From Macrolepiota albuminosa (lineage: Eukaryota > Basidiomycota > Agaricomycetes > Agaricales > Agaricaceae): a DNA stretch of 64,000 nt. The stretch covers positions 724,212 through 788,211 of the forward strand of contig JAMWFC010000055.1 of assembly GCA_027475525.1 (NCBI GenBank). Direction: 5' to 3'. The position numbers and the translations under genes were made by a program. Below the pieces are notes generated by a model. It ran no database searches and was not told the origin of the DNA. It worked only from the letters and a program-made list of their open reading frames with translations. This document shows, one piece after another, positions 7,042 through 62,040 of the stretch; positions within the stretch are counted from its first letter, which is position 1, and each line of letters begins with the position of its first letter.

Positions 7042-8060
7042 GATGCATTCCTTTATCTCGAGAGTTAACAATGTCTCTGCTCTGCTCTCCTCGGTGACGA
7101 TGTGCCTATTGGCATCTATTGCTCTCTCGTCCTTCCTTTTCACAGCAGACCCCAAGGGCGAGGTTCACTTGACCTCGATCAAGGTGTGAGTCAATTGAGT
7201 GGACGACTTTGCTGTCTGAATCAGAGCTAATTATGATTTGCCAATCTAGCTTCCCTACGAGTCAGCGGCGAACGACCAAGAAACAGGAAATGACATTCGT
7301 TAACTTTAATATAACAGCAGGTCTGATTGATTCAAGATTTCATCCTTCCATTCTCGCTTACTGCAACTTGCGTGTCTCGCGGGATCTACATATAGACCTC
7401 ACGCCTCTTTTCCATTGGAACACTAAGCAAGTCTTCCTGTACCTTGAGGCCGAATATACCAACGCTAAGGGAGTGAGTTTTATCTTTGCTACCTCAGGAT
7501 ACTTTCGAGCTGTCTTCTATCCCTATATTCACGTGTTTTGGTACTTCCATTCTGAGTACATCGATCGTCCATTTTTATCACTCGGAGTAAAGCAGTCATT
7601 GATAATTTCTCATCCAGGTTCAAAATGAAGTTGTAATATGGGATCGTATCGTGCGACGTAAGGAAGACGCGGTAATAAATGTCGTTGGAAAGAATAAATA
7701 CATGCTACGCGACCTCGAGCCAACGTTCAAGTAAGTTGTTCTGGTTCAAAAAAAAGGATTCTTCTCGGGATGGTGGTGGTTTTTCCGCATCGCTAAGGCC
7801 CTGTTTTATGCATTTATCCGTCAATTCAATACATATTAACGAACTCTACGTGGTGGTTTTTCCGCATCGCTAAGGCCCTGTTTTATGCATTTATCCGTCA
7901 ATTCAATACATATTAACGAACTCTACTTAGGAACGTTTCTGCAGCCCATTACGCGCTGAAGTACAACGTTATGCCGTACGTAGGTTTGTTGACATACGGT
8001 GAAGCAGGGAGAACCGTAGACCCAGTGGTGTTTCCTCCGTCACAAAGTCGTGTGTCATGA
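7042..8060 (+). CDS. SPC3: Signal peptidase complex subunit 3 (SPC22/23)
   Basis: ER membrane subunit of the complex that removes signal peptides from secretory proteins. Five exons: 7042 to about 7186 gives MHSFISRVNNVSALL plus one signal-anchor helix (SVTMCLLASIALSSFLF). The next exons give TFVNFNITA, DLTPLFHWNTKQVFLYL, and EVVIWDRIVRRKEDA with KYMLRDLEPTF. The last exon (7931-8060) gives HYALKYNVMPYVGLLTYG and ends RVS-stop. This is the standard SPCS3 architecture of about 190 residues, with one N-terminal helix and a lumenal beta-rich domain. The fourth intron holds an exact 77-bp duplication (7773-7926), which enlarges it but leaves the coding sequence and the acttag acceptor intact. Confidence 0.9.
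7773..7926. repeat. 77-bp exact tandem duplication, no. 1
   Basis: Copies 7773-7849 and 7850-7926 are identical and abut. Located in the last intron of SPC3. Confidence 0.95.
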
Positions 8061-9044
8061 TCTTTGTACGTCTGGTCAGTGTTATAAATGATAAACGTGT
8101 ATTTTTCTACCCTCCTATGGTCAAACCTTGATTATCGTGGGTACGCCACGTGTGAAGGCTAGGAGATTTGTCAAGATTATCTGGGCCTGAGGTGCAATGA
8201 TTGCACTTTCTGGAGTGCGTTGTGTCATCACAGCCCAGGTATGAAAGAGTAGCTCTACTAATGGAGAGTTTGCGTCTCCTCGGGACGTCGAGCCGAGATG
8301 TGAGAGTATTCGATTTGATATTGTGCCGACTAATGTTGAACTTGCAGACCTATTCATATTAGTAACACAATTGTGCGCGCAGTCGAGTAAAAATAGGATT
8401 TGGACCGGGAATACCTTGGACAACACCTTGCGGCCTCTGCAGCCTACTTATGGACTTATCTTGTGACACCCCGACAGTTTGGTACTAGATGCTCAAATGG
8501 AGAAAGTGGGGAGGAACTTTGGCTGAGAACTTCGTGTGAAGTTGTTTACTTGCCTATGTGCTTATAGATCGGACTTGATTCTATTCAGGCTGCATTTTAC
8601 CATCATTGTACGCAAACGGCACTGACGCATTTAACTGAGATGTGCTGTGACCAGAAATTGAAGGATGATCTCATTGATTAGATGGCATCAAAACAAAGCG
8701 GGAAAAGGGGTCTTCTGACAGGAGAACGTGGACGCAATTCTTTCGAAGTCACTTGTAGCTTGGCACACCTAGCGCTTCTTTGTAATAAATTCGACGCCTA
8801 ATCTCAACTATCTGTCTGGTTGCCCACTTTTCTCTGTCTATGGTCCCATGTACAACGTCCACTCCAATATAGCCAATTTCTCCCTCATGCATGGCTCCAG
8901 CCAGCCATTGACTGACCCCACGCCAGTACAGCATTCCAACTACGTCTGCAGGCGAGCGTCATCGCCTACTGTAGTCCATCAAGTCAGTTGTGACGCACTA
9001 GCCTGTCTGTTTCCTTTGACCTTTTTTTCTTTGATCAGTCACCC
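8061..9044. other. Intergenic, no gene recognised
   Basis: About 1 kb between SPC3 and the zinc-cluster gene. A 101-codon minus-strand frame (8121-8426) and a 61-codon one (8749-8934) are open. Neither shows a domain, splice partners or composition that would support a gene. Confidence 0.45.
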
Positions 9045-10237
9045 ATGAGAGAGGAATCCGAGCCACTTTCGGCATATGCGCGCTGGAAAATTGAAGAAGA
9101 CGAAAGATTCTACGCGACTTTCCCCGCAGCAAGATGCGCTGCACAACAATATAGTACCGTCTCGAGTGCGTATCTGGTGGGCACAGGGCATTATCCCAAT
9201 GAAGAGGGCCGCATTGCAAGGTCCAATGAACCGACATACAAAGATGACCCTTCATCGTCATGTGCATTCACTGTCTATGACGAGAATGCCGCGAGTCTCG
9301 AACCACGAGGGACCAACTACGGTTATGACATTGACTACAGCGGTTCGGACCTAGCTCGGGCCCTTGTATCCGCGTCGCAGGATGGCGCAACAAGAAACAA
9401 TGGCCCATGTACGAGCCAGTACAACGTAAGTGGCAAAAAGCTTCTCTTGGTCAGGAGTTCCGAGTTACTAATAACCGCGTGACAGCCTGCTCCATCTCCA
9501 CCTCCACCCCGGTCACCTGTCGAGACCACCCAGACTAACTTGGTTGTTCATTCACAGCATCCTCTATCCGTCCCCGAGCCCCCACCAATGGACTCTCTAC
9601 CGTCCCCTGATTCCCCTACTCAGCCTCCACCGTCGTACAACACCTATCCCAAACCTGACATGACTCAAAAGACTGAATACTCGCTTCCAACCTTAGGCTA
9701 CGCAGACGTTTCCCTCTATTACATGCCTGCGTACTCCGGTTCATACAATTTTTATCCAACCACTCCTCAAGATGGATGGCCTGTGTGTACGCCTTTCCCT
9801 CATAGTATCCGCCTCAGCCCACTCCCCTCTTCAAGGAGACCGATATCGAAGAAGCCGCCCCTCGCATGCCTTTTTTGTCGAGGTAGAAAGATCGCTTGTG
9901 GCCCCCCGGATCCCGGGAGTTCCAATAGAAGCTGCAAGTAAGTTTCTCATCTTTCTTCCTATCTGTGCGGCCATTCCTGCTAGCACAATTGCGTATTACG
10001 TCCTTGAGGCAAGTGACACGAGGTCTTTTGATGACATAGGAGTGTCACCTGCCCCATTCTATCTATGAGTTCGTCGTGATATCTGATGTTCTTTGTGTCA
10101 GCCAATGTCAAAGGCGGTCAATCAAGTGCGAGTATCCTGCTGAAAGCCGGCGTGGTATTCGGAAGAAGAAAGCTACTTCGAATCTCAATGTGGGCCCAAA
10201 GGTCAGGGTGGGGAAGCGGTCGCGAGTATTACAATAG
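9045..10237 (+). CDS. Protein with a C-terminal Zn2Cys6 cluster (putative transcription factor)
   Basis: Three exons: 9045 to about 9426, about 9486-9938 and about 10099-10237. The first exon encodes a helical N-terminus (YARWKIEEDERFYATFP). The second is Pro/Ser/Tyr-rich and low in complexity. The cluster spans the last intron: KKPPLACLFCRGRKIACGPP, then NQCQRRSIKCEYP after the splice. This supplies six cysteines in the order C-x2-C-x6-C-...-C-x2-C-x6-C. A basic tail (RRGIRKKK) follows and the protein ends at 10237. Zn2Cys6 domains bind DNA, usually at CGG half sites. Most sit at the N-terminus, so the C-terminal placement marks a basidiomycete subgroup. No Fungal_trans middle domain is present, and the targets are unknown. 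Confidence 0.82.
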
Positions 10238-10697: not shown

Positions 10698-13262
<2,565 letters not shown>

Positions 13263-25888: not shown

Positions 25889-26045
25889 CTTTCGAACTTG
25901 CTAATTTTAGCCGCCTTAGAGGATTATGAAAGGTTGTACTGGAGAAAGAGACAAGCGAGTATGCTCTTTCGAACTTGCTAATTTTAGCCGCCTTAGAGGA
26001 TTATGAAAGGTTGTACTGGAGAAAGAGACAAGCGAGTATGCTCTT
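25889..26045. repeat. 77-bp-period tandem duplication, no. 3
   Basis: Second copy begins at 25966. The match extends 80 bases, three beyond the period. Intergenic. Confidence 0.95.
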
Positions 26046-27054: not shown

Positions 27055-27208
27055 GGAACAGGGTCCCAGTCGATGAAAGGAGCGTCGACTCCCAAAATCA
27101 CATAGTTACGTGAAAGAATCATGTGTTGCGGGGAACAGGGTCCCAGTCGATGAAAGGAGCGTCGACTCCCAAAATCACATAGTTACGTGAAAGAATCATG
27201 TGTTGCGG
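27055..27208. repeat. 77-bp exact tandem duplication, no. 4
   Basis: Copies 27055-27131 and 27132-27208. Intergenic, upstream of MND1. Confidence 0.95.
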
Positions 27209-27486
27209 TATTATTGTGGGACAGCCTAGGTCTTAGAGGCGCTCGAGAATGAAATTGAATGCATCATAGAGGAATTGTTTACTACTTGAGATATATATGC
27301 GTTTTTCAAGAGAAACGAAAGAGTTGAACAAGAGACAAAGCTCGCGTTAACTTCACAATTGCATGTCACGGATTGGCCGTATGATGCGGACGCGATTACA
27401 CGTCCGGATAATCAAGGAGTCTGAGTTTGACATTTCTTATCAGATTCTCCTCCTCACTGGAATAATTCTTCCTCATTTCTTGCTCA

Positions 27487-28664: not shown

Positions 28665-29145
28665 GTAGACGTCATTTCATTAACCAAGTGTATTGTCGAG
28701 CAATAGATTCGTAGAGATGACGTGACGTGTTTGCAACGTATATCCATCCTGCTGTGTCTGAGACAGAACTTGAACAGTGGCACGACTAGACTAGACGCAA
28801 GCCTTTTTCTGATTTCCTCCGTTATTTATCTGTTTTGCGGTTGCAGGAGTAGCAAGGATATGACTGTATCACAGAAACCATGAGCCCGTCCCGACTTCTA
28901 GCCTCTCTTCGCTTTCATAAAAGCATGGAAATTGTGCTGGAGCCTCCTTGTCAACCGGAAAATAACAGTAAGATAACTATGATCCAACGAAAAGATGTAT
29001 ACCAGTCATTTGAAGAGATTCGTTCCTGATGAGTGTACCCCTTGATAGGCTCATACTTCTGACTCAGAGGTAACTTTTCATTATTGTTCACTTGGAGTTC
29101 TAGATAACGAACTCTATTACTCACTGTTCAAGGTCTGTTCCCAAG

Positions 29146-29299
29146 ATCAAGCACACAGATTATGGGTCCATGCCTGAAAGGCAGTATTTCTGTCCTAGGA
29201 GTAAAAAAAGACGATATAGTTCATCAAGCACACAGATTATGGGTCCATGCCTGAAAGGCAGTATTTCTGTCCTAGGAGTAAAAAAAGACGATATAGTTC
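29146..29299. repeat. 77-bp exact tandem duplication, no. 7
   Basis: Copies 29146-29222 and 29223-29299. No called gene. Confidence 0.95.
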
Positions 29300-41128: not shown

Positions 41129-41207
41129 TGTCCCAGGGAGGATTCGAACTTCCGGCTTCTCGGAGCCAAACCACAACGAGATGATTTAACCACTAATCGA
41201 CAAGGAC
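41129..41207 (-). tRNA. tRNA-His (GTG), intron-containing, copy 1
   Basis: On the minus strand the sequence folds as a cloverleaf: 7-bp acceptor arm (with one T-T mismatch), D stem GATT/AATC, anticodon stem TCTCG/CGAGA, anticodon GTG after TT, T loop TTCGAAT and discriminator A. The anticodon loop is 14 nt, implying an intron of about 7 nt just after position 37. T stem pair 52-62 is A-C, shared with the copy at 44577. Closely similar to that copy except in the acceptor arm and intron. Confidence 0.65.
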
Positions 41208-41365: not shown

Positions 41366-44091
41366 TCAAATGTGGGGAACACCAGTTGTGACACGAGGGT
41401 ACCTCTCCGCAATGAGCTGGTAGAAGGGAGATTCAATATACGGAATAATTCCAATACATCCTTGCATGAACTCACGCCGAAGAGCTCTGGCGCTCGAATA
41501 GCCAGTACCTGCGGGTCTTCGCCGAGACCAACAAATCTGAGGCGTAATGTCATCAGAGGCTTTTATCCTTGAGTGACTATAACTCACATTGTCGAGACAC
41601 CAGCTTCGATGGCAGAAGACAGGGTCAAGGCTGAGATAGACAAGTTAGTAAGAACGCGCGTTCTGATGACATGCTTTACATACAGCATACTGTACCAATC
41701 AAAAATGCAAAGAGCAGGACTGGCGCAGTGTAACTCCCATCCGCGTTATAAGACGGGGCGGTGACTGGTAAATCGTCAGTCAGGAAGAACCTAGTGTGAC
41801 TATGACAAGACGCTTACAACGCAGATAGAGGTAGGCGAAGAGCGAGCAAGTTATTCCAACAACATATGCTCCCCACATCAATGCTGGAAATACGAATTAA
41901 GTGTCAGGAAAGACTTATACCGAAAGGCATACTCATTCCAACAAGAGAATCGTTGACGAGGGCATCGATGCCTGTTGAAAAACCAATGAGCAGTTGTATG
42001 AAAGACGTTGCGATCAATGAAAAGTTCACCTCGGTCCTTGAAAAGCCTCCAGGTATCCTTAGCTGCACTAATATATGGCTTTCCATACAGTGCTGTAGGG
42101 ATGTTAGACTCGCCAAACACAAGGAAACAAACAGACCAATCTCAATGTACGCATATCTGAATTAGAAAAATATCAGCTTTCTAATGCCTTGAGTGGAGGA
42201 CTCTACCTATTAAAACATTCCACCAAGGTCTCTATGCAACCAATGAAGCATGCTGCGCAGCAAGCTAAACAAGCCTCGACAGCTGAAAAAAAAAAGAAAC
42301 TATGGTTATGCAGAACAACAATGGAAAGCATACTTACGATGACCATCAGCACTAGCGTTATTTCGTATCATGTTAAATAACAGTCTAACGAGCTCCAGTA
42401 GCGTAACAATCAAAGATCCAAAGGCAATCGATCCCAGAGATAATGTATGTTAAATAACAGTCTAACGAGCTCCAGTAGCGTAACAATCAAAGATCCAAAG
42501 GCAATCGATCCCAGAGATAATGTGACGCCCTTCCAAAAGCAGAAGTAGTGGGATGTTTGGGCTATGAGCAAGAATATCAATAACGATTACGTCCTCGTTC
42601 CCAAAGAGATACAATACAAACCATCTCTCCCATGCTGCGGGGTCCAAAGTAATACCATGCCCCAAAGGGCCCTCCTGCTAGGGTGGCAATAGCAACGTTT
42701 TTGACAACTTGAGAGGTCCAAAGGAAGGAAAAGGTCTCGTAAAAGATTAGGCCAGCCACTGTGCCAGACGAACAACTAGTGGTTGCGCAATCTATGGTGG
42801 AAATGAAAAGGTCTCGTAAAAGATTAGGCCAGCCACTGTGCCAGACGAACAACTAGTGGTTGCGCAATCTATGGTGGAAATGTCATGGTGAATTGTAAAC
42901 ATATAGACACTACTCACTGGGATTGCCTGGCGTGTATTTATTGTATCTGTTTCGCGTACATCTTCACCATACACCATATGTTCGAAAAGACAATACTTAC
43001 GTGGCAATCGCGGTGAACACGTACCACCTTGATTGAAGCTTCACCATACACCATATGTTCGAAAAGACAATACTTACGTGGCAATCGCGGTGAACACGTA
43101 CCACCTTGATTGAAGATTTATAAAAGTACATAACAGAGAATCATTACTCACACGGCCAAAGCTGCTTGCAACAGAAGGCAACGAACGCCACGAGGTAGAC
43201 GCTCATGTGGTGTTTGGCCACGTCCATTACGACTTGCAGTAAAAGTGATGCCAGGGGTATTCGGGATCTAAAACCAAAGTAGGAGAGGATCGCGAGGAGA
43301 GCGAACACCGTAAAGATAATCGCGCCGGCTATAGGCAAAATAAGGATTAGCAAGATAAGCACTACCCAGGGGTACAGAAACACGAACACCAATATTTTGT
43401 GATCCAATAATAAACACAAATTCCACTGAAAAGAGCTTCAGTGCTCTAGGTCTCGAAACGTGAGTTGTGAGGTGTACGTACATGTTTAGCAAAATTGTTA
43501 ATACGAGGGTGATGTGCATGATTACCCGCGTGAACGCGCGCGTAAGCATGAGGTAGAGCGTGGAAAGCAGCAGTGCAGCTGCTGTAACCAGGAGTAGCAG
43601 GTAAACCGTACTCCTGGATGCAAAATGAGAAAAAGTATGGTTCAAGAACAGCTTAACTCACCGGTTAACTGTAACAGCCGTACCAGATTGTCCGCCTGAC
43701 TTTCCAAGGCCACCCCCAAATCCATTGCTTGATGACCACGAGTTGAGCACTACGCCAGATAGTGCTGCGTACCCAAGGAGCTGCGTGAGGTTGGATGCGT
43801 GTTTGTGATAGACAGTACGGAGGATAACACACTTGTAGCACGAAAAAAATCAGGAATAAAGGATCGTTGATTCTGTGTTTTGGTTTGAACCGGTCACCTT
43901 CGTAAGGCGATTTCTGATAGTAGGCTGGAGGAGGTGCTGGTTGCTCAGGCTGTGTTTTGGTTTGAACCGGTCACCTTCGTAAGGCGATTTCTGATAGTAG
44001 GCTGGAGGAGGTGCTGGTTGCTCAGGACATATCCCTCGTAACCTCCATAATTGGGCGTGGGTCCTGGATAGGGTTTGTATTGGCCATCCAT
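41366..44091 (-). CDS. PNS1: Choline transporter-like (CTL/Pns1) membrane protein
   Basis: Multi-pass plasma-membrane protein of the SLC44/CTL family; yeast Pns1 has no proven substrate. Start at 44091 with a Tyr/Pro/Gly-rich N-terminus (YKPYPGPTPNYGGYEGY, then PPPAYYQKSPYEGDRFKPKH) and INDPLFLIFFVLQ. Then come NRSTVYLLLLVTAAALLLST and other helices, ATTSCSSGTVAGLIFYETFS (the conserved Cys-rich loop), LGSIAFGSLIVTLLELVRL, YGKPYISAAKDTWRLFKDRG and FSLIATSFIQLLIGFSTGID. The signature FVGLGEDPQVLAIRAPELFG and YPRVTTGVPHI end the protein at 41366. About a dozen exons. Duplications 15-18 lie inside. Collapsing no. 18 still leaves the N-terminal exon one nucleotide out of frame between GGYEGY and PEQPAPPP. 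Confidence 0.88.
42370..42523. repeat. 77-bp exact tandem duplication, no. 15
   Basis: Copies 42370-42446 and 42447-42523. Doubles a CTL exon (GSIAFGSLIVTLLELVRL). Confidence 0.95.
42728..42882. repeat. 77-bp-period tandem duplication, no. 16
   Basis: Second copy begins at 42805. Doubles the CTL exon start coding the Cys loop, including its acceptor. Confidence 0.95.
42962..43115. repeat. 77-bp exact tandem duplication, no. 17
   Basis: Copies 42962-43038 and 43039-43115. Doubles a short CTL exon (RWYVFTAIAT) with flanking intron. Confidence 0.95.
43873..44026. repeat. 77-bp exact tandem duplication, no. 18
   Basis: Copies 43873-43949 and 43950-44026. Inside the N-terminal CTL exon. Confidence 0.95.
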
Positions 44092-44576
44092 GACGTCCAG
44101 AAGGAAAAGGGGTTTAATAAAAGTGGTGAAAGTCGTATATAAAAAGATTAGGCAAAATAGGGGGTTGAAGAAGAGAAGCAAGGACGATGCGTTTCGCGCT
44201 GTGCTCCATTCACAATGTCGATGGCGGACGTGACGTATTTCAAGTGATCCGATCTTTTAACCTTGGTCAAAATTAGGCGATCACGTGGACAAACCTTGAC
44301 CCTTGAGAGCGGAACAAGTCCCTTATGGAATTTCCATTTCGATGACCTCCTCTAGATGAGTAAGCTCAGTTAACCATCTGAGGGAATTTCCTTTGATGGC
44401 CACCTAACTTTAGATTGGCGAGACGTAGTATACAAGTTCGTTTCTGTTTTCACGCTCCACATGCCACAACAATATCTCCAAATCAGCAAATGAGGCGAGA
44501 CGTAGTATACAAGTTCGTTTCTGTTTTCACGCTCCACATGCCACAACAATATCTCCAAATCAGCAAATGATGCGAA
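44092..44576. other. CTL promoter / tRNA upstream region
   Basis: 485 bases between the CTL start and the second tRNA-His. Contains duplication 19, which ends 7 bases before the tRNA. No coding frame supported. Confidence 0.45.
44417..44570. repeat. 77-bp exact tandem duplication, no. 19
   Basis: Copies 44417-44493 and 44494-44570. Intergenic, immediately upstream of tRNA-His copy 2. Confidence 0.95.
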
Positions 44577-44656
44577 GTCCCTGTCGATTAGTGGTCAAAT
44601 CATCTCGTTGTGGATTGTGCTCCGAGAAGCCGGAAGTTCGAATCCTCCCAGGGACA
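44577..44656 (+). tRNA. tRNA-His (GTG), intron-containing, copy 2
   Basis: Acceptor arm GTCCCTG/CAGGGAC pairs perfectly. D stem GATT/AATC, anticodon stem TCTCG/CGAGA, anticodon GTG preceded by TT, T loop TTCGAAT, discriminator A. The loop is 15 nt, implying an intron of about 8 nt after position 37. T stem has one A-C mismatch (52-62), also present in copy 1. No encoded CCA, as expected in a nuclear genome. Confidence 0.75.
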
Positions 44657-45025: not shown

Positions 45026-45897
45026 ATGCGCAAGACATCCTATGTTTTGACCTTCTTTGTAGTGGTTTTTACTCTCCTTCTGGTAAGCCAAAAACCCATT
45101 TGTAGCCAATTGCTTGGAAAAGGAGGTATATTTATGATGTTTGGTAGAATGTCTTCTCTATTTCTCGTCCAGATTGGTTAGTCTATTCAGTCCTGCTTGC
45201 GCTTCCTGGCGACTCAAACAATAACAGGCTGATCGTTCAGACACCTGAAGTCCTTTACACTAAGCTCACCATCACTTACGGTCTTTCTCAACGTTGCGAG
45301 CGTCAAGTCACTCGCATACCAGGGAATGAACATTCAAAGTTCGAATACAGTGACTATCAGTGTAGAAGCTTTCCAAAAAAGGTTACCGATCGTTGTGAAG
45401 AGGAAAATGCTGAGTTTTGCGCGGCATGGACGAGTGCGCGATATTTCGAGGAGCTTGCAGCGTGGAGTGCTGCGGCATCACTCTGCTCGATAGCATTTGG
45501 TGTCAGCACGCATTCCCGCAGAAGGAGGATCTGGAGAGTAGCCGCGGGGCTAATACTTCTTCAAGGTATGTGCATTTCCTAAATGGCTTGCCTCCAAGTC
45601 TAACTAACCCCTTACCGATTCCAGCTGCATTCCAGATCGCCACTTTTGGAGTGATTACAGACCTGTATAGTACATCGCAATTCCCGACTTTTGAGGCCGC
45701 ACGTTTGGGTAAGCTCAGAAGAATCATTTACTACCTATCTAGACCTACTTCTAGGCCCTGGATACATCTGTAACATTGTTTCATGGATCTTTGGTATCTT
45801 CAACGGCATTGCTGTCATAATCACTGGAATTTCTGCGGACCAGGGTCACAAGTGGGCAGCCGGCAACAGAGCCTACAGGCGCATCCCTAATGTCTAG
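45026..45897 (+). CDS. Four-helix membrane protein (claudin/Sur7/PalI-like topology), unknown function
   Basis: Start at 45026: MRKTSYVLTFFVVVFTLLLN forms the first helix. Exon 2 then gives VFSISRPDW and, after an intron with a gttagt donor, LIVQTPEVLYTKLTITYGL. An extracellular loop follows with spaced cysteines (SQRCERQV, YQCRSF, DRCEEENAEFC). Helices 2-4 are WSAAASLCSIAFG, VAAGLILLQAAFQIATFGV and ICNIVSWIFGIFNGIAVII. A short cytoplasmic tail (AAGNRAYRRIPNV) ends at 45897. Helix 1, Cys-rich loop, three helices and a short tail match the topology of fungal Sur7/PalI and animal claudins. I cannot tell which family it belongs to. Five exons. Duplication 20 starts inside the last exon and repeats the end of the gene. 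Confidence 0.75.
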
Positions 45898-46004
45898 GCT
45901 TAGGAACTTCTTGACAGATCCATTTATAGTGGGCAGCCGGCAACAGAGCCTACAGGCGCATCCCTAATGTCTAGGCTTAGGAACTTCTTGACAGATCCAT
46001 TTAT
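45851..46004. repeat. 77-bp exact tandem duplication, no. 20
   Basis: Copies 45851-45927 and 45928-46004. Contains the stop codon of the four-helix gene, duplicated downstream. Confidence 0.95.
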
Positions 46005-47761
46005 CTGAACTACATATGTAGTACACACGTATCCGTACCTCATTATCGCACACGATGTCCCTCCATCTCCCTTATCCGTACTTTAAGTATTGTACACGGC
46101 TAAAATCCCTCTTCCAGTTACGTACGATCCAATGATGCTCCAAGTTTCCTTAGAGATATAGACCCATTCGAGAACCCTGGCTTTTGTTCTCAAACATTAA
46201 TCATCGTTGATGGCAACAAAGTTCTACAGTCGAAAATGTCGTATCTTATAACTGGTTGTAACTCCTATTTGGGAGTTTGTTAATAGCAAACCATCTACAG
46301 GAAGGTCGGAAGGCTCCCGAGTCGGACAAAAAAAGTGCTGACAAGCTGTCAATGTACTCAGTAACGACTATATACCTGTTGACAAGTTTTACTAAGTCTG
46401 CGTTAGTTTCATTGTGGAGTTACGTGTGTCGGGCTCGGGCTCACCTCAGTCCGTTGTATAACGACTAAGGTGTTCCGATGTGCATCCGGTCCTTTTGCTA
46501 TGAACTTTAATAGTTTTTTCTTTTTCCTTCGTACGTTTCACGTGCTCGACATAGACGTCGACGCATTTCTGTTCAACGAAAAGTTTTGTCACAAGCACAC
46601 ATGTTAAACACTCTAAACTTGTAATGTAGATGTAATGTTCTACCTATTTCTGACTTGTTCTGAGGTGGTTACTAGTACCCCTCCAGGCCGTTTGGCACTC
46701 CACACTGCAGAGAAAGTTCTCACACACCTAGGGGGGGCGCTAAGTACCACAAGAATCGGTGCCTGTGAGGCCACCGGCGGCCAAATAACAGACCTTGGGA
46801 AAACGAGGGTAAGCTCTGGTATACCACAAGAATCGGTGCCTGTGAGGCCACCGGCGGCCAAATAACAGACCTTGGGAAAACGAGGGTAAGCTCTGGTATG
46901 GGAAGAACTAGCTACTAGACAAGAGTAGGAATGGTTTATATAGGCATAGCAAAGCTAATATATCAGAGATCAAATGAATGGTCTGCGGGCAGCACTCAGG
47001 AGGGATAGGGAATCAGATCACTGTAAAGATAGGGGTGGAATATCGTCACTTTTGTGTTTGTTTAACTCTAATATGGAAAATTAGATGTGAATGGAAAATA
47101 TCTAGAGAAGCGGACCCTGGTAAGGTCCACTGCGAGGAAGAAATCAAAGGAAGATTGAGGAAAGCCCTACTTATCACGTAGACTGAAGCTTGACTGTCTG
47201 GCCACGGATAGAACCCGGTACGGGAAACTGGCAATATGTGGAGACCTGGTCAGACATACATGCGGCAATATGTTGCCAGAAAATACTACCCCCCTAAGGA
47301 CATGGCGGAAAGCGATTGAGGTTTTAGTGGGTATAGGCTAACACCCGAGTCCCACACTGAGTGCGTAATGGCATTTCCTGCGTTGTACAGGTTATACATA
47401 TACGGTTATTGTAAGCTTATCCCAAGCTACGGAAGTCGACTATGTGCGTAGTCCGTAGACCTGTGATACCACAAAAAAAAGATTGATGATGGTAATAATT
47501 TACTTGAACAATGAACAATAGACATTAGCATAAGTAGTATAGAAGACGTAGGTAGTGTACTGCGTAATATATGTGCCGGTAATTACAAATGACCAACAAG
47601 GGCCTAACCAGCGGTAGTAAACGATAAATGAGACGGTCTCTTGTATCGATCAAATACCCCCCAAAGCCATAGTTTTCCATTGAAAACAAGGCCTTCACGA
47701 GACAGGTGACAATGCAGGAATTTTGAGGGAGACTGTTGCTTCCATTCCAACACAGTATCTG
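45898..47761. other. Long intergenic region, no gene recognised
   Basis: 1.86 kb, AT-rich, with duplication 21. The 70-76 codon frames at 46635-46865 on both strands exist only because of that duplication. A gene-free stretch this long is unusual for this window and could hold decayed mobile DNA, but I see no terminal repeats or transposase/RT motif. Confidence 0.45.
46745..46899. repeat. 77-bp-period tandem duplication, no. 21
   Basis: Second copy begins at 46822. Intergenic. Confidence 0.95.
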
Positions 47762-50700
47762 CTAACGCCTGGTCGACATTTCAATTTCGTCTACCCTATT
47801 AGTTGAAGACGAAGACGACGCAGCTGCCGAAAAGGGCGTCTGGGGTGCTGACGATTTCTGTCTCAGATTATCACCTAAACTCTCTGAAATATTTCTTGAG
47901 CTTGTCATGTAGAGCTTTAATGAAAAATGTGAAAACATCCTTTGTTATCGGAACGGACACATACCTCATTAGCTTTTCCATTTCCTGGATTGATCAACTG
48001 GGAAGTATTGCGTCTAGATTTGTCTTGAGAACCCATGCATATCACATACCGATCACAGCATGTCTGTCTGCGAGTTGCCACCCATCAGGTGGCGTCTGTG
48101 CGAATTTTGAAGCTTCTTCTTGATATTCTTTGGCCTCGACTTCCTCGTAAGGCACCTTCATGTATCGTGTTGGAGCGGGAGGTACGTAAGGGTTGCCAGC
48201 GGGACCGTAAATCTTGAGCTCTACCAATGCTATTTTCAGAGCACATATCCACTTATTTCGCCGGCTTGCTGCAATTGGGATGAGTAATACATTTAACAAG
48301 AGCCAAATTGGTTAAACCTTTTAAAGCACTTATTTCGCCGGCTTGCTGCAATTGGGATGAGTAATACATTTAACAAGAGCCAAATTGGTTAAACCTTTTA
48401 AAGCACCTGTTGCCAATTACTCTTATATTTTACATCAGCTGACAGTGTCAGCTTTTTTTGGTCCGGGAAGTCTGTGTATATGATCAGCATTAATCCAGTT
48501 GAACAAATGAAACTTATTTTGACCCTTTACAGTGACATCGAAGGCAGGTTGATAATCACGTCGCTCTGTTTCGACGAAGGCGAGCATCTTCTCCCGGAGT
48601 TTTTCCAGATCTTCAAAGGTGGTGGCGTAACTCACGTCAAACGTGAACGTCTCCGACATCTTCATTTACGATAAGAATAGGAATTGAGTGGCGTGTTTAA
48701 AACTTACTTGTGGGCTACGGCGAATGTTCTGAATGAACTGGAATGGGAGATGAGTAACGACGGATTCTGAAAGAAAAATAAAGTTTTTATACCAATGTAT
48801 TCAACACTGTGTTAGGAGCTTGAACAGAAGTGTTGTTCGAATCAAGGAACACCGTGCTGAGGAGACGAATATCTTCGACAGTATAACTCTCTTTGTTGAT
48901 GTAGACGCGATCGCCAACGTCGAATGGATGTTTGACGAAAAGAAAAATGATGCTTGCCAGGACCTCTCTTTGTTGATGTAGACGCGATCGCCAACGTCGA
49001 ATGGATGTTTGACGAAAAGAAAAATGATGCTTGCCAGGACCTCCTGTAGACTGCCGCCGATGAGCCAGCTCAAACCTAAAAGAAATCAAGTGAGATGACA
49101 TGATTAAGATCCCTTGGAAATACAGGCACCAACCAAGAATAAGCGACCCGGTCCCCGTGACCACGGTAGCTAGTTGAGCTTCCTAAAAAGTGATAACCTT
49201 GGATCAGGACCAACATGGTGATAAAACTATGTGCGCAAGCAGACACACCAATGCGACGGCAATGATAATGATAGCGACCACAGTATAAAGAGTCATCAAT
49301 ATATTGTCCAAACGTCCCACAGCGCTGTCGAGGTTTTGCATAGACTTCTCGATAGATGACTGTTCGCGATGAATCTCCCTAGAGTGAATATGATGAGCTC
49401 GGAGCGCTTTTCGACACCGTAAAGCTGCTGTCTAAGCCGCTGTCCAGCATCGAGGGGTGTCCAAAAGGCTTTTACTCACAGGCAAGCCATTTCGACTTCA
49501 TCATAAGATACATCTCCGTTCATATCCTTGTCAAAAATTGAGAAGACGCGATCTGCTTCCTCGGAAGTCGTGAAATAAGGGGCGATGTCATCTACGAGGA
49601 CATACTTTGCATCGGGTTTTGCAAAGGAGCAGAAAAGTCGGCGGGCAAGCTAAAGTGAATTTGTCAGTTTGATTCGAAGTAATGATAGAGTATCTGACGA
49701 CGGCTCGTTGAACTAACCAGTCTTGATTTATTGGCGGACTCCAAAGCAGTTTTCACCATCGCCTGAGGAGAGTTAGGTTGGAGGACAGAACTGTACCCAG
49801 ATCGCGTGAGTACATGTTTATTGAGAAAAATACCATCGCCTGAGGAGAGTTAGGTTGGAGGACAGAACTGTACCCAGATCGCGTGAGTACATGTTTATTG
49901 AGAAAAATAATTTTAGGGATTGTTACCTTCCTGCTATTCCCGAAGCAACATTTCCTAACGCCGTGGTGGTAGTAGTGGCGGCCATACGTACGCCCTGTCT
50001 GAACTTCTTGAAGAATCGTTTGGCACCAACGGGCCCTCTGTTCGATGTACCATCATGGAGGTCATCCGATCGTCCTGGAATATCTTTGGAGTTGCGATAT
50101 AAAGTCACTAGGGACTTTACAGCAAACTCTTGATCGGTGATGCGCTCTGTCATGCGCCAAATCTTAATTTTCGTACCGTTTAATAGGACAGGACAAACGA
50201 ACCAGCATAAGAACGTTTATGGAACCTCGTAGCAATCCATTGAATAGAGAATTTCTCAAACAAGAGGGCTGCAGAGCAGAGAACAAATGCAAAAAGCAAA
50301 CGCGCAACAGTATCAGAAGCCTGAATACTCTTTGTACCAGCTTTGTCAGTTTGCTTGTCATCAATAAAGGGACCCCATGAAATCCATATAGTGTATGTCC
50401 ACGCGAAGAGTGCAATATATCTGCGAATATGTTTGGAATCAACAACCATCACCTGTTTTGACATGAAGTAATTGACCTGTGTAGTACTGCTATCCAGTCG
50501 ATGTATTTCCGTGTTCCCACCGCCACAAAGCCGATGGTAAATCTTAATATAGGTGGAATCATGAGGCTGCAGAACGGCAACATCATGCCATAAATATCAC
50601 ATACGGCTCTGAAGTTGCCAACTTACGAGAAGGCGAGCACTACCCACCAACCTATTTAGTTGATCAAGACAGGTTCCCTCCACGAGGACTAAAAAGGAAA

Positions 50701-51179: not shown

Positions 51180-51977
51180 TGAGAGGTATAAATGGTATGG
51201 CAGTGAAGATTTCCGCCTTTACGACCGTTGGAAGGAGTGTTAGGAATGTCCGTTGTGAGCTCGAAGACGAGCAACCAGTTGATAGGGAATGAAAAGAGCA
51301 GTAGACGTGAGGTTGCAAGGTCAGGCTCAGGAAAGATAGTATGTTTAGAAAGACAATTTTGACGTGCTGTTTTAAAGGGAAAGAAAAGGCCAATCTGATA
51401 TAGGAAAACAAGACTCCTTTGTTAGAAAGACAATTTTGACGTGCTGTTTTAAAGGGAAAGAAAAGGCCAATCTGATATAGGAAAACAAGACTCCTTTGAA
51501 CAGTGACAACCGTCAATCCAGCAGATCTGTCCGGCATTCTTCCCTCGATACTCAGTGCCTCTTTTGACGACACCCTGGCAATGTGAGTAAGAAATCGAAA
51601 TTTGATCGGATATTCATTTTGTAAGTGGTTTGGTAACTTCGGGATCGTCGATGAGATCAATGAGACGTCAGTGAGACACAGCTAACTCATAGGCTTATCA
51701 CTCGCCTGTTCACGTCTGTGTCCACAGGCAAGCAATGCAAGTAGTAACGAACTACGTTTTACGCGAAATCTGTACATATGATAGCAATTCTGGAAGACGA
51801 ACAACCTGATCTAATAGGGCTTGGCGGGCCAGGGCCTCAGGCAAAAGATCTATCTAATAAAAGATACAAGATATCTGGATTTGGGAATCAAAAAGTCTAT
51901 GCCAGAAGTCTTCAAATTTATGCGTTTCGTCCAGGCTTGGTATATAATAAGTAACGTGGATCCGTATACAATTACTC
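51180..51977. other. MscS promoter and 3' flank of lyase 1
   Basis: 800 bases with duplication 25. The 174-codon minus frame (51136-51660) reads through the duplication and has no recognisable motif, so it is not called. Confidence 0.45.
51345..51498. repeat. 77-bp exact tandem duplication, no. 25
   Basis: Copies 51345-51421 and 51422-51498, upstream of MscS. Confidence 0.95.
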
Positions 51978-53430
51978 TTAGAGTAACATGGCTGCCAATC
52001 CAATGGTGGCGAGCCAAAGAAGCGGAGTGGTCATTCGGAAGTATGTTGCCCGATCAGCGGCGTTGACAACTTGGCCAGTAAGGTTGGACGCCAAAGAAGC
52101 GGAGTGGTCATTCGGAAGTATGTTGCCCGATCAGCGGCGTTGACAACTTGGCCAGTAAGGTTGGACGCTGCATTTCCACCGTATAAACGTATGTTACGAT
52201 AATACGTGTGGGTTGTTGTAGGTGTCTCCCAGCTGTCATCAGAGCCTGTCATAAAACAAGATGAGAATATGTTGTATGAAGATCAAGTATCCGAGTCACC
52301 TCCGAAAAAGGTCCTATTGAAATGCCATGTACATTCAAAGAAGGCTACTGACCAGGAGAATTCATACTCACGAGAAATATAGACCGTTCGCATTAACCGA
52401 TGAACTACTGCGGATCTGGAGATTCTGTTGATCAATGGCTTTCAGATCATTGTAGCTGGGTTGGAAAGCGATCAATCATCCCGATTGCTAAGGAGACATT
52501 GTAAAGAGCGACGAACTAGAGTTGAACATTGCCATTGGCAACGTTTGGAGGGTTGTTCAAGCGAACGAGAAGAGTAATTCTATTCCACCTGCTCTGATGT
52601 GAGGATGAAGCCCTATCAAATTGCAAAAGTTACTCGCTGGTTACTGACGAAGCCAAAAGCGCCACGTTGAAGAGAAATGCCAAAATCCGGATTACATATG
52701 ACACCGTCTGAAGAGCATAAGTCGTTCGGAGTGGGTATATATGCATAGACTAGGATATGCCTGATGACAATGGAATAGGGTTCGAATCATGAGTACACAC
52801 CTTCTCCCTGGCCGTCCTTTCTCCACATTAACCGTGTGATAAAGCACTCCTTCCCGTCCGCCTCATTACCACCACTACAACCGGTAGAATTTAGACCGCC
52901 ACGCAATCCTGGAAGTTTCCCACCCTTGACCCAGTCGAAGCCAGCATCAAAAGCCACTTCGTAAGAAAGGAGCATGGACTGGAACGACGATCCGTCGCTC
53001 GCATTCCACAGATTAATGAATTGTGCACCACTATCTGAGGATCCGAAACTATGGACTGGAACGACGATCCGTCGCTCGCATTCCACAGATTAATGAATTG
53101 TGCACCACTATCTGAGGATCCGAAACTTTGCTCCGGGTATGTGACTTGTAGGACTGGGCCAGTAGAGTTTGCTCCGGACGTGGTTGGAAAGGGATCGTTG
53201 ACGAATGCAAGATGATCTGGATTGTCCTGGATTCTGCCTTTCCCAAGAGACCAGCCTGATACGATGAGGGAGTCTGTATCCTTTGCACTTTGTGTGGCAC
53301 TAGGAAATGGCAGAGTTGTGCTGGAGGTGAGACCATACTGCGCAGCGATTTGTTCAACTGAAGTCTGTTGACTGGCAACGTATATGTTAGGCACAGAAGT
53401 AAGTAGAGAGAATAGAAGTCGACGATGCAT
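51978..53430 (-). CDS. Secreted polysaccharide lyase-like protein (PL14-type), paralogue 1, probable GPI tail
   Basis: Start at 53430 with a hydrophobic signal (MHRRLLFSLLTSVPNIYVA). The mature part contains TSVEQIAAQYGLTSSTTLPF, SLIVSGWSLGKGRIQDNPDH, LAFVNDPFP, VLQVTYPEQSFGSSDSGAQF, FINLWNA, LLSYEVAFDAGFDWVKGGK, LPGLRGG and ECFITRLMWRKDG. These blocks match the basidiomycete proteins annotated as polysaccharide lyase family 14 (glucuronan/alginate lyase fold). Later exons give GSDDSWETPTTTHTYYRNIR and LYGGNAASNLTGQ. After collapsing duplication 26, the end reads LLWLATIGLAAMLL-stop at 51978, a hydrophobic C-terminus typical of a GPI signal. About eight exons. Substrate unproven. Duplications 26 and 27 are inside. 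Confidence 0.82.
52013..52168. repeat. 77-bp-period tandem duplication, no. 26
   Basis: Second copy begins at 52090. In the last coding exon of lyase 1; without collapsing it, the hydrophobic tail is lost. Confidence 0.95.
52974..53127. repeat. 77-bp exact tandem duplication, no. 27
   Basis: Copies 52974-53050 and 53051-53127. In the core exon of lyase 1. Removing one copy restores an unbroken frame on both sides (QFINLWNASDGSSFQSMLLS). Confidence 0.95.
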
Positions 53431-53820
53431 ATTAAAGGATAGCCTGGTAGAATTTGAAAGTAGTATGGGAACCTGCCCTTGCAATTGGAGATGGAAGTTC
53501 TGTGAAAGTGACGTCTGATGGGGGACGCTTGTCACGTGTACTTCCGATGCGCGTAACCCACGAGTTTTAGGTGTGAATGCAAATGGAAAATATGACCGCG
53601 TGAAATGCGTCGATGAGCATGGGATGCGCGTAACCCACGAGTTTTAGGTGTGAATGCAAATGGAAAATATGACCGCGTGAAATGCGTCGATGAGCATGGT
53701 ACTGTATGGAAAACATTGAAACTCGCAATACAATACAGTCCTCGGACAGCCGCCTATATGCGACATTATTCCCCAAGATAACCTGTTACAATAAAAAAAA
53801 TTGGATACACATCGCAGCCG
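53431..53820. other. Upstream region of lyase 1
   Basis: 390 bases between the two lyase genes, with duplication 28. Presumed promoter of lyase 1. No site assigned. Confidence 0.45.
53546..53699. repeat. 77-bp exact tandem duplication, no. 28
   Basis: Copies 53546-53622 and 53623-53699, in the promoter side of lyase 1. Confidence 0.95.
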
Positions 53821-55141
53821 TCACACCTGACAAGACAAAATCATGGCGCTAGACCTAGGTATGTGAATGATTGAGTGTGATGCGCTGTTGATCGCTTTGC
53901 CTGTGAGATTTGAAGCGACACTGCTACCATACAGGATGACGTTGCGGAAATACGTATGCGTAGTGTTTGGTGTTGCCCAACTTTTATCAGATCCTGGCAA
54001 ACGAAATGTCAGTGCCCTAACCTACAACGGAGAAGGCCACAACTACCTCCGAAAAAAGTCCTGTTGAGTATTATTAGATAAAGTAGAGGCCATAATTAGG
54101 AGACCGTACGAGAAGTAGAATCCATTTAGATAGACTTGCGCATTTGTCCGGAGTTGCAGGTCTTCTTGATTAATTGCCAAAAGGTCGTTGTAACTATAAT
54201 TCGCGGCGAAGCATTAAAAACCCGCCCATCTTAGGAAAACATTGACGAACTAGACTTGAATGTTTCCATTGGCATTCTGGGGATCGTTCAAACGGATGAG
54301 AAGAGTGATACGATTCCATCTGTAAGTTATAAGCACCAAGTTTGCATGCAATTGAGTACAGACGTACTGGCCACTAGCAAAGCCAAATGAACCCCGCTGC
54401 AGACTTGTTGCATCGGATGCGCAGCTAACTCCGGGTTGATTGCAAAGGTCGTTTGAAGTAGGTATGGAGGCATATACTACAATCTCCAATTCAGAAGCAC
54501 ACTCAACATCAAGTTCGGATGAACATACTCTCGGCATTTCCACTGTTGCGCCACATAAGTCGGATACTGAAACAGTCATTTGTGGCCGATGCCTTGGCGC
54601 TGCTGCATCCTCCTAAGTTCGATTTTGTGGAGCCCCGCAATCCAGGAAGCTTGCCGCCCTTAACCCAGTCAAAATAATTGTCAAACGCTACTTCGTATGA
54701 CACCATCATCGTCTGGAATCTTGATCCCGCTGTGGCATTCCACAAGCTGTAAAACTGGGCACCACCAGTTTCGGACGAGTAGCTGCCTTGGGGATAAGTT
54801 ACTTGTAGGACGGGTTTTCCTAGGTTCTTGGTGGTCCCAATGGCTACTGGTTTCGTAGGAAATGGGTCCGCGACAAAGGCGAGATTATTAGGATTCGTTT
54901 GGATTGAACCTTTGCCGAGTGACCAGTCTTGGACAAGAAGTTTCTGAGTATCTTGTGTACTTTGCGTTGCGCTTGGGAAAGGAAAGGATGTACTCGTAAC
55001 TAGTCCATAATCAGCTGCTAGTTGCTCTACAGACGCCTGGGGGTTGGCCGAGGCGTAAGCGAACGTGAAAAGGAGCATCAAGAAGCTACTGGCAGAAGGA
55101 AAGAATATTGAGCAGAGCATGGCGATAGAATAGCCAGACAT
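53821..55141 (-). CDS. Secreted polysaccharide lyase-like protein (PL14-type), paralogue 2
   Basis: Start at 55141 (MSGYSIAMLCSIFF), with a second Met eight codons on (MLCSIFFPSASSFLMLLFT) that could be the true signal-peptide start. The core mirrors paralogue 1: ASVEQLAADYGLVTSTSFPF, LLVQDWSLGKGSIQTNPNN, LAFVADPFP, VLQVTYPQGSYSSETGGAQF, YSLWNATAGSRFQTMMVSYE, FDWVKGGKLPGLRG and DCFSIRLMWRNSG. Then come CNQPGVSCASDATSLQRGSF, RITLLIRLNDPQNANGN, NDLLAINQEDLQLR, and GSDKSWATPNTTHTYFRNV with LYGSSVASNLTGKAI. It ends at 53821. The C-terminus lacks a long hydrophobic GPI-type tail, so this copy may be freely secreted. The two genes lie head to tail, 390 bases apart, with the same exon plan. No 77-bp scar falls inside it. 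Confidence 0.83.
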
Positions 55142-55514
55142 ATGAGGCGAATAGCCTGCTCGTAATGACGTGACGAAGGAAGGAACGGCTAAGAGTCAAT
55201 GGGTGTGATTTAGACTACAGGAGATGGAAAACAATCGAGACAGCGATCGTTTCTTGGCGTTTGGTACCATCAAATCGTCCACGTGAATCGTATCACCTTA
55301 GCGGAAAAACTTTGGCGTGAACCCACGTCGACAATAATTTGCAGGTCAACATGAAAATGTGGAAATGCATAAGACATACCCTGAGTTGAGAGAGCCATAT
55401 TAAGACGCCTGTTGATGACTTCTTTCCCTTGGATATCACGTGATAACGTTTCAAGGCGCGTGTCACTCAAAGCGCAAGCTACGCTCTCATGGTCTTTGTA
55501 TCCACTCCTTCATA
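55142..55514. promoter_or_regulatory. Divergent promoter region, lyase 2 (-) / AAAP transporter (+)
   Basis: About 370 bases between two start codons transcribed outward. No specific element recognised. Confidence 0.45.
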
Positions 55515-58083: not shown

Positions 58084-60343
58084 CTATGATGCCAAAGCCG
58101 TCGCTTCTGCCAAGCCTACGACTGCATCCAGGCTCTCAACGCAGATTCCGCCTGCAAGACTCTCCTGTGCAGACAGAGGGGACACGCTGAGTTCCGTATA
58201 TTCGCTCCACACTTGTTCCACGCGCTGAACCGGAGGTATATCTGGCGACGAGTCAACAGGGTCGCATACCAAGAGCCAAATCGCATCGTATCCACCGGCT
58301 ACATGCCAAGTGAGTTTTCAAACACCTTATGAGGAAGACATAATTAACATACCACCCGGGACACCGCCTCCAATGACACCGGCGAGAGATATGCAAGAGT
58401 TAAGGAGTTTCGTCTGCTCCACCGGTTCAATAGGGACGTCAGACAGTTCTCCCATTTTTTTCATGCTAACGCGAATAGCCTAAATATGCGATCTTGAGTA
58501 AACCACAGTTGAGAATTTTTTTCAAACTAGATACCCATGAAATCTTGTGGGCATCATAAAACTTCGTGATAATAGGCTTTTCCTCTTCAGGTTGGTATTC
58601 AAACTAGATACCCATGAAATCTTGTGGGCATCATAAAACTTCGTGATAATAGGCTTTTCCTCTTCAGGTTGGTAGGATTGGCTGACCACTTCAAAAAAAA
58701 CATCAAGTTCTTGCCCTGCCAACAAAAAGTCTGCAGACTGACCTGAATGGGTTGCAAGGAGGCGATGTACTTGAGTGCAGTGGTATAACTAGAGGCATCC
58801 TGTTCGTACAGTTCTGACAGGGCAGCGAGCGTTTCCGCTAGCCTCGTGTTCAATCTATCTATATCTGTCCACAACGCAAGTGCTAGAAGGGACAGGACAA
58901 TCAACACAAAAGACAGGTGTCCACTGTCAGCCCAAGTTTCACCCACGCCACGCAGCGGTAATTACTGCATAGTGGCAGTAGAAAGGGAATGATGTACCTT
59001 GTTCAGGATTTTCTGTCCGCCATCTGAGGACCTTGCTCACACTGCATAGTGGCAGTAGAAAGGGAATGATGTACCTTGTTCAGGATTTTCTGTCCGCCAT
59101 CTGAGGACCTTGCTCACGAGCGTGGGTGTATCACTGCCCGCGTCGACGTCGGCGAGCATAAGCCTTGTTAGGGGCGGAAGCTTGAACGGCTTTATGGTAT
59201 AATCCCATGCTTTGTTGGAGGGCGAGAGTATCGAAAGAAGAGTTGAGAGCCCAGCTGCATGGGGAAATAGATACCTTGCATCGGCGATTCAGAATACATA
59301 GACTGATACTGGGACTCACAGCTTCCTCATTCATCAATCCGTTCAGCACTGTAGGATTGAAGCGCGTGTAGATATGGCTGCCAAATACGGCCGCAGCGAC
59401 ATCGAAACCACTACCCACCTTTCCCTGGGCATAACAGTGGACATACTGTGCGAGGTTGTGAGCTAGCAAGCGGCCATCGCCAGTAGAAAGGGAGAAGGCG
59501 TCTGGGCATAACAGTGGACATACTGTGCGAGGTTGTGAGCTAGCAAGCGGCCATCGCCAGTAGAAAGGGAGAAGGCGTCGCCGAGATGCTTGAAAAGTGA
59601 ATTAGCAGAGCAGAGACGAGGGATGTGATGAGAGCCGCGGAAGACCCAAGTCCCGTTTTGTGTACTTGGGATAACGGGACTCCAGTTGAAGTGAAAGGAG
59701 GTATTTGACTGAGGGAGTCGAGAGTTCGCGGGAGGTGCAGTGAAGCAAGCTATTCAAGAATATTTTTTTGAAAGGAGGTATTTGACTGAGGGAGTCGAGA
59801 GTTCGCGGGAGGTGCAGTGAAGCAAGCTATTCAAGAATATTTTTTCAATCCTGAGCTCGACATTGAGCTTCGTTCCAACCTTTTCCCTTTGCGAGTAAAA
59901 GTCATTGTCTCCGACTATTGCAATGTCGAGACCTTTGGACAAGGAAGCGTTCAACGATGTAATTCCCTTGATTTCAGCAATCAGTGCAAGTGTGATTTGT
60001 AGCGCTAGGTAGACAAATTTGTTCTTGCTCGTACTAAAGTACAATTCCATTTTCGTAAGAGCAATGCACGACGACGCCAACTGTTTTCAACGTACTTCGT
60101 TGGTGACTCCTCAACCTTCACAGTCGTTTGAGTCGTCGAGACGGAATATTCCCAGGTCGCACTGAGGAACTGTGGGGACCTCACACGGATGTTATTTGCA
60201 CCTCGAGAGGCATCTGTCTGGATGACGGTGTAAAACCGGGACGATGTGGACACCACGGTGCCAGAGTACTTGGGATCGAGCACAAGATAACCCCCCGAGA
60301 CCAAAACTTTGCCTGGGGAGGATACGACGGTTGTAGAGGCCAT
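58084..60343 (-). CDS. ERG8: Phosphomevalonate kinase
   Basis: GHMP kinase that converts mevalonate-5-phosphate to the diphosphate on the way to ergosterol and isoprenoids. Start at 60343: [20 protein letters not shown]. Then [55 protein letters not shown] and the nucleotide loop [20 protein letters not shown]. Next come [20 protein letters not shown] and [16 protein letters not shown], then [39 protein letters not shown] and [32 protein letters not shown] leads to the stop at 58084. A TATA-like stretch (tatataag) sits about 50 bases before the ATG. Duplications 29-32 are inside. One frame break remains after SALLIHF (next block [15 protein letters not shown]), where one extra T is needed at the run near 59593-59596. 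Confidence 0.92.
58521..58674. repeat. 77-bp exact tandem duplication, no. 29
   Basis: Copies 58521-58597 and 58598-58674. In an ERG8 exon ([14 protein letters not shown]). Removing one copy leaves the frame intact. Confidence 0.95.
58964..59117. repeat. 77-bp exact tandem duplication, no. 30
   Basis: Copies 58964-59040 and 59041-59117. Doubles an ERG8 exon end ([13 protein letters not shown]) and its donor. The frame is intact after collapse. Confidence 0.95.
59425..59579. repeat. 77-bp-period tandem duplication, no. 31
   Basis: Second copy begins at 59502. In an ERG8 exon ([12 protein letters not shown]). A one-base deficit lies 14-17 bases to its right. Confidence 0.95.
59693..59845. repeat. 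77-bp-period tandem duplication, no. 32, second copy one base short
   Basis: Second copy begins at 59770 but matches for only 76 bases. The first copy ends in a run of seven T, the second in six T before diverging. In ERG8 around an exon/intron border. Confidence 0.9.
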
Positions 60344-60569: not shown

Positions 60570-61870
60570 CTAACGACCTCCACGCGCAAACCAAGTCTTC
60601 TGCTGCTCACACGTCGCGTTCGTGCACCCCGGGCACCGTAGACCGAACTGCGTACTCACTGGACCCTTCCCGGACGCACATTCCTTCAAGTGTTGTGCAG
60701 CGATATCGGCCAGTGCCCGAATGAACACCGGCGACCCATTAAGTGACTCTGCACGGTGAACTTCTATGCCATGCTGCCGTAGCGAAGGCAAGAAAAAAGG
60801 TCAGTTCTTGTCTTCTGTGTTTCATGACGAGAGAAAGCCTTCTCACCGCGCGTGCTTCCTCGGCATACTCCAAATCAATCTCATACAATGTTTCAATATG
60901 ATCGCTGGTGAACGCAATGGGAACCAGCACGACTTGCTTTTTACCTAACCGTGCCAGACCCTCAAGCGCCTTCCCCGTCTGCATGCCCATCCATGCCGAT
61001 GGACCCACTTGAGATTGCCAAACCAGACGGTATGGATTGCTGTGCCTGAGCCTATCCATAACGGCAGATACGGATGCCGAAACTTCAAGGATATAAGGAT
61101 CTCCGCGGTTGACAACAGACATGGGTAACGAATGTGCCGAAAATAATAGAATAGTGTCTTGCCGTGTAGAAGCAGGAAATTTAGCGAGGGCGGCCTCGAT
61201 ATTTTGTGCTACAGCCTGTTCGTAGGTTACTCATCTGATGAATCGGGAGTTTGAAAGAGAAACGTACCTCAACAAACCCTGGGTGGGTACCCCATCTGTC
61301 TATAACGCTCCACTCAATATTCCCAGTGTTATCCGTGCTCCCTTTGCGAAATATCTCGTTCAAACTGCTTCCAGTCGTACTGCAACTGTACTGTGGGTAC
61401 TGCGTGAATGCGATCGCCCTCTTCACTCCGTCCGCCCTCATTTCCGCCAACGTTTGTTCAGTCATAGGGCGAACATATCGAAAAGTTACATAGGCCTTGT
61501 GAGGGGCTGTTTCAGGGTGCAACTCATCCAAGAGCTTTGCCATTCCCTCGCCCTGTAATTTCGTCCACCTCAGAATGGGCGATCCACCGCCAATGTCTTG
61601 GTATTGTTTCTCAATTTGTGGTGTGCGTCGACGCGCAATCAAGGGTGCTAAAACGCGCTGAAATGGCAAAGGGATGAGGTCGCCATCAGAAAAAAGGTTT
61701 TTGAGGAAGTCATGAGTTTCTGAAACCTGCTCAAAATGTCAAGCTAGCAGATTGGAGTCGTGGCAAGCAACGGACAGTTTCGGGGCCACCCATGTTCATC
61801 AATACTATGGCTAAATCTCTGTTCAGCGTGGGTGTGCCGTGGCGGCCTGTAAGCTATACAACGCACCTGT
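60570..61870 (-). CDS. HEM15: Ferrochelatase (with C-terminal Fe-S cysteines)
   Basis: Last enzyme of heme synthesis: inserts Fe2+ into protoporphyrin IX on the matrix side of the mitochondrial inner membrane. The core begins near 61830 with [20 protein letters not shown], then [80 protein letters not shown] and [20 protein letters not shown]. Then [17 protein letters not shown] (the catalytic-site His block), [40 protein letters not shown], and [20 protein letters not shown] with [18 protein letters not shown]. It stops at 60570. The CPGCTNATC cysteines match the [2Fe-2S] ligands of animal and S. pombe enzymes. The mitochondrial presequence exon lies further right (61.87-62.05 kb), but its start and phase are obscured by duplication 33. 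Confidence 0.93.
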
Positions 61871-61886
61871 GGGGCTATGATAATCT

Positions 61887-62040
61887 GGTTAGTACGTCGC
61901 CAAAAATAAAAGCGGCGACAAACTCTACCTCTTGTTCGGTGGAGGCACATTATGCAACGAGGCGGTTAGTACGTCGCCAAAAATAAAAGCGGCGACAAAC
62001 TCTACCTCTTGTTCGGTGGAGGCACATTATGCAACGAGGC
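61887..62040. repeat. 77-bp exact tandem duplication, no. 33
   Basis: Copies 61887-61963 and 61964-62040. Covers the likely presequence exon of ferrochelatase (a minus-strand ATG followed by CLHRTRGRVCRRFYFW), doubling its start region. Confidence 0.95.

Follow-up and report, generated by a model that had tools for sequence, protein, structure and literature searches.

Exact 77-base tandem duplications in an assembly of Macrolepiota albuminosa are almost certainly untrimmed overlaps between assembled pieces

The window analysed here is a 64,000-base stretch of Macrolepiota albuminosa DNA (contig C90, positions 724212-788211) in the 100.1-Mb assembly GCA_027475525.1, which comprises 129 contigs. 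Polysaccharide lyase, protein phosphatase and tRNA genes lie in it, together with 33 exact tandem duplications in each of which a unit of 77 bases is immediately repeated. These duplications are almost certainly assembly seams rather than features of the organism, left where contigs sharing 77 bases in a de Bruijn graph were abutted without trimming. In a self-match scan of the window (offsets 1-2999, exact runs of at least 25 bases), every one of the 33 lay at offset 77 and no run was found at any other offset; exact runs this long at a single offset in 64 kb are far beyond chance. The first run begins at 7773 and the last finishes at 62040. On rechecking, 33/33 pairs of units were free of mismatches, and the runs measured 77 (n=18), 78 (n=9), 79 (n=3) or 80 (n=3) bases. 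The only cross-match among the 33 units is of 13 bases, and each 77-mer (33/33) occurs solely as its own two tandem copies in the window and 24 further loci, one of which (L023) consists entirely of N. No N is present in the window or in the 40 sampled loci that contain letters. A sequence-only reading had reported 33 direct duplications of period exactly 77 between 7773 and 62040, with identical copies and mutually unrelated units, and all of this is borne out; it had also given the repeated stretches as 76-80 bases, of which 77-80 are seen, while there is no run of 76.

The duplications, to which no strand is assigned, are unevenly spread along the window. In what follows the run is 77 bases unless another figure is given in brackets. 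The first 25.9 kb (1-25888) hold 2 of the 33, at 7773-7926 and at 12550-12703, the latter overlapping the beginning of an open frame (12285-12614, minus strand) that matches a protein kinase domain. Eleven lie at 25.9-33.5 kb: 25889-26045 (80), 27055-27208, 27607-27761 (78), 28477-28632 (79), 29146-29299, 29994-30147, 30340-30494 (78), 31246-31400 (78), 31553-31706, 33010-33165 (79) and 33359-33513 (78). A single one is found at 37.6 kb (37566-37720, run 78). A further 14 occupy 42.4-53.7 kb: 42370-42523, 42728-42882 (78), 42962-43115, 43873-44026, 44417-44570, 45851-46004, 46745-46899 (78), 48250-48406 (80), 48887-49043 (80), 49755-49909 (78), 51345-51498, 52013-52168 (79), 52974-53127 and 53546-53699. 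Among these, 44417-44570 is just upstream of a tRNA gene (44577-44656, plus strand), which is one of two in the window (Rfam RF00005; the other is at 41129-41207 on the minus strand), and 48887-49043 is within an open frame (48790-49182, minus strand) that matches a mechanosensitive-channel domain. The remaining five, at 58.5-62.0 kb, are 58521-58674, 58964-59117, 59425-59579 (78), 59692-59845 and 61887-62040.

Pfam scans around the duplications covered 20 open frames and gave four with a family match, one weak (LZ3wCH, below the cut-off), and two of the window duplications, 52974 and 37566, were compared with a paralogue. At 52790-55195 the minus strand carries a pair of neighbouring polysaccharide lyase 14 genes, with about 53-56% protein identity. 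Such lyase genes, together with short introns and gypsy-like elements, give the sequence the look of a filamentous fungus. One of them runs from about 53376 to 52793 and has the duplication 52974-53127 in its coding part, with that at 53546-53699 upstream of it. It matches the paralogue (54512-55195, minus strand) in two frames, one before the duplication and another after it, and both frames yield the same stretch of about 25 residues (SFGSSDSGAQFINLWNASDGSSFQS), which is encoded twice. Identity amounts to 56% and 53% in these two matches, and the paralogue, which lacks a duplication, reads through with 228 codons open from stop to stop. Since 3 does not divide 77, any seam within a coding exon creates a spurious frameshift along with a spurious short repeat. 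On the plus strand, a pair of neighbouring PP2C phosphatase genes occupies 37280-40791. The duplication at 37566-37720 spans the end of an exon and most of the adjoining intron, with boundaries inferred by reading the sequence, and the next piece of the domain begins 137 bases past the end of the exon match, compared with 24 in the paralogue at 40271-40791; the second match in the paralogue, however, begins 8 profile positions earlier. The PP2C paralogue has no such duplication. The duplications had been described as falling in exons, introns and spacers, and this stands for one exon (52974) and one exon-intron boundary (37566), most units being without an assignment.

The same duplications are found well beyond the window. 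We sampled 25 stretches totalling 208,598 bases (L001-L022, L024, L027 and L028; L023, being all N, was left out), and these are not a random sample, as two of them (L011 and L012) border the window and another two (L027 and L028) were picked as a pair. They hold 33 further exact 77-base duplications, in 11 of the 25 stretches, situated on contigs C1, C20, C46, C70, C90 and C100; further loci add duplications on C5, C11, C14, C23, C79, C85, C87, C89 and C108. Some occur inside repeats (L014, L005, L010 and L017), and others occur in DNA without a second full-length match (8/8 units of L009). Tabulated over the window and the 25 stretches, 66/66 exact duplications with periods of 30-1000 have period 77, and no perfect tandem duplication of another period in this range was found. 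The spike at 77 that had been predicted for the distance distribution is seen in the sequence sampled, and slippage is ruled out by the single period. Short arrays with periods of 20-25, two in all, occur in L014 and L016. The small excess of some runs over 77 bases fits chance extension of a 77-base unit, as had been proposed: runs of 77, 78, 79 and 80 or more bases were observed 39, 18, 6 and 3 times against expectations of 37.0, 18.6, 7.0 and 3.4 (chi-square p=0.96).

Traces of mobile elements, such as target-site duplications, are the least probable of the explanations considered here. Some units outside the window do lie in repeats, including one stretch (L001, C1:100001-110000; 63% GC, with 7 exact 77-base duplications and two with one mismatch) whose element we take, from its motifs, to be a gypsy-like retroelement. 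Against such an origin, the two copies abut with nothing between them, the 33 units of the window are unrelated to each other, and no motif was found at the start, junction or end of the duplications among the 39 sites with unambiguous register, where the highest information content at a boundary was 0.14 bits as compared with a null 95% level of 0.27. The absence of a boundary motif also counts against a second biological origin, namely real tandem duplications produced by an enzyme or a replication process with a fixed 77-base step. Such a process would account for duplications that are exact and numerous and that lie in some cases within genes; no duplication process with a fixed 77-base step is known to us, and the altered coding frame of the lyase gene argues against one. 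The age of the duplications is a further difficulty for a fixed-step process, as the near-perfect pairs have at most two mismatches and no older, decayed duplications were found down to 66/77 in the window, the 25 samples and L029-L032.

A more direct test comes from a pair of near-identical stretches on contigs other than that of the window, L027 (C46:265001-275000) and L028 (C71:513790-523789), which were found through a PP2C search with equal match scores. Their identity over 10 kb is about 99.3%, the alignment differing in 70 columns, and they are probably haplotypes that the assembly kept separate or else a single stretch that was duplicated. L027 carries a duplication at 7255, whereas L028 has the same 77-mer once, at 7334-7410. 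The last 77-mer common to the two at this place is the duplicated unit itself, and the next base is T in one and A in the other. With only 70 differing columns in 10 kb, it is unlikely that a difference would fall by chance on exactly that base. A graph with 77-base overlaps would require, at a branch vertex, just such a difference directly after the 77-mer. The single copy on C71 and the end of the unit at a difference are hard to reconcile with a fixed-step process in the organism. More generally, where a unit has a single exact match in another, non-overlapping sampled locus, the sequences diverge at an edge of the 77-mer in four of six comparisons (L014-722/L031, L017/L034, L027/L028 and L033/L041). 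These edges bear also on a different artefact of the same size, in which a gap closer or a similar tool wrote a 77-base anchor twice. The seams contain no Ns, as closed gaps would leave them, which is in keeping with such a tool; however, units whose edges sit on sequence differences, as in C46/C71 and in four of the six comparisons overall, are a better fit to contig ends at graph branches than to arbitrary gap edges, and we regard the gap closer as very unlikely.

Repeat copies provide further single-copy counterparts. In a search with the repeat around the duplication of L017, 40 of 1649 candidates were scored and 79 non-self matches were listed. Among these, 24/24 copies whose match is split at the site lack the second unit, the subject falling short by 77 bases in 21 copies, 78 in two and 79 in the remaining one; one-sided matches were left out of the 24, and two of the 24, both on C126, agree in their query coordinates and in score and could represent a single stretch that was duplicated. 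Two copies read as letters, L040 (one of the 24) and L041 (a one-sided match), have no duplication at the site. A smaller number of the matches listed (9/79) cross the site unsplit, and these copies might have shared the duplication of L017 by inheritance. This was rejected: each of the seven that were fetched (C87:438086 and C90:2389420 were left out of this check) carries its own exact duplication, 77/77 identical, which overlaps the L017 unit but is 3-30 bases out of phase with it, whereas duplications passed on by descent would be in phase with each other and would have diverged. The units in these seven copies are 86-99% identical to the L017 sequence, yet there are 0 mismatches within pairs. 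Other copies among the matches listed have an extra 77-79 bases elsewhere, several times over in C90:2390329, and similar splits of matches (not counted) occur at the duplications of L014, L005 and L010, with 40 candidates scored for each. Several pairs of repeat matches with equal scores lie on one contig, about 80-280 kb apart (C65:253874/359682, C27:396510/570704, C87:438086/520320 and C126:1219822/1501210), and it is possible that these represent larger duplications, false or real, within contigs.

The 24 single-copy L017 counterparts and the identity of units inside diverged copies of a repeat both speak against the fixed-step process. It would need a living organism to copy exactly 77 bases in tandem, without a motif, recently enough for nearly all pairs to be free of mismatches, and differently in each haplotype, which is scarcely credible; real duplications of this kind are more improbable still than the gap closer. 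A biological origin, whether by a fixed-step duplication, a transposon footprint or a minisatellite, is rejected, since counterparts with a single copy are found, no motif marks the sites and each repeat copy is duplicated at a phase of its own. The sequence-only reading, which had dismissed slippage, transposons and minisatellites, holds up on the same grounds together with the single period.

Several observations nevertheless weigh against the interpretation of the duplications as untrimmed contig overlaps. The seams are unevenly spread, and 14 of the 25 sampled stretches have none. Five duplications outside the window are near-perfect, with 1-2 mismatches (two in L001, one in L029 and two in L030), and untrimmed overlaps can account for them only if single contigs were corrected later, to which we attribute these mismatches without proof. 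The spacing from seam to seam goes down to 217 bases, while a graph with k=77 permits pieces of 78; hence, a length filter must be assumed, and this minimum suggests that pieces which were too short were dropped. The comparison of haplotypes rests on the single pair C46/C71, which comes from contigs other than that of the window. For the eight of the 33 window duplications that were tested (the four from 27055 to 29299 and the four from 58521 to 59845), no second allele or locus was found in the assembly, although the lack of a match need not mean rarity, and none was found for three duplications in the left flank of the window either. Two of the six comparisons with a single-copy locus do not diverge at the edge of the 77-mer (L014-722/L032 and L014-2385/L031). 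A single 77-mer occurs in duplicate in L030 as well as in L031, as would be expected of a shared vertex of the graph and also of inheritance, and the latter would suit a fixed-step process. Finally, in the homotype false duplications described in PMC8081667, a gap stands between the two copies, whereas no gap is written here.

Taken together, these results lead us to retain untrimmed overlaps as the explanation, and this part of the sequence-only reading is supported by its checkable predictions. Short reads would have been assembled in a de Bruijn graph in which adjacent pieces share 77 bases. In SPAdes adjacent graph pieces share exactly k bases, and in ABySS k-1; k would thus be 77 if the assembler was of the SPAdes type and 78 for an overlap of k-1. 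Those pieces whose end is a branching 77-mer may then have been ordered by longer-range information and written end to end, without Ns and with the shared 77 bases kept. Pieces written in this way would show the branch 77-mer twice in tandem at each seam. Which assembler, which k and which joining tool were used is inferred.

These findings are a warning to users of assembly GCA_027475525.1, as the 77-base repeats break genes on paper. The rate seen outside the window (33 in 208,598 bases, from places that are not random) would correspond, as a very rough figure, to 16,000 seams per 100 Mb, with 1.2 Mb of sequence that is false. The spurious frameshifts and repeats would corrupt gene models and predicted introns, and would distort counts of pseudogenes and of tandem duplications. 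Any assembly can be checked for this error quickly, without a reference, by looking for perfect tandem repeats that all have the same length.

Errors of this type are already known as homotype false duplications at contig boundaries, and false duplications in assemblies are treated generally in PMC9516828. According to PMC8081667, from the Vertebrate Genomes Project, such duplications stem from overlapping contig ends at graph branches: as here, the branch sequence is present on both contig ends and becomes a tandem duplicate after joining. In those cases the duplicate is often as long as a corrected read, whereas here the length is always 77. The present duplications show the features of this class: the tandem copies are identical (33/33 pairs in the window); divergence at a unit edge, as at a graph branch, is seen in loci outside the window (four of six comparisons, C46/C71 among them); and homologues are single-copy (C71, the 24/24 L017-site copies listed and the lyase paralogue, two paralogues having been compared at the window's own sites). 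The one exact length (66/66) and the chance-like excess of the runs (p=0.96) are those of 77-base overlaps in a de Bruijn graph. Normal output of the SPAdes type lists overlapping contigs separately. Here, by contrast, contigs have been joined, into sequences of up to megabases, and the overlap has been kept. Like the contig end overlaps of SPAdes-type assemblies, for which k is usually 77 with 150-base reads (PMC6404606), the duplications have a length of exactly 77, and the C46/C71 unit ends where the two sequences begin to differ.

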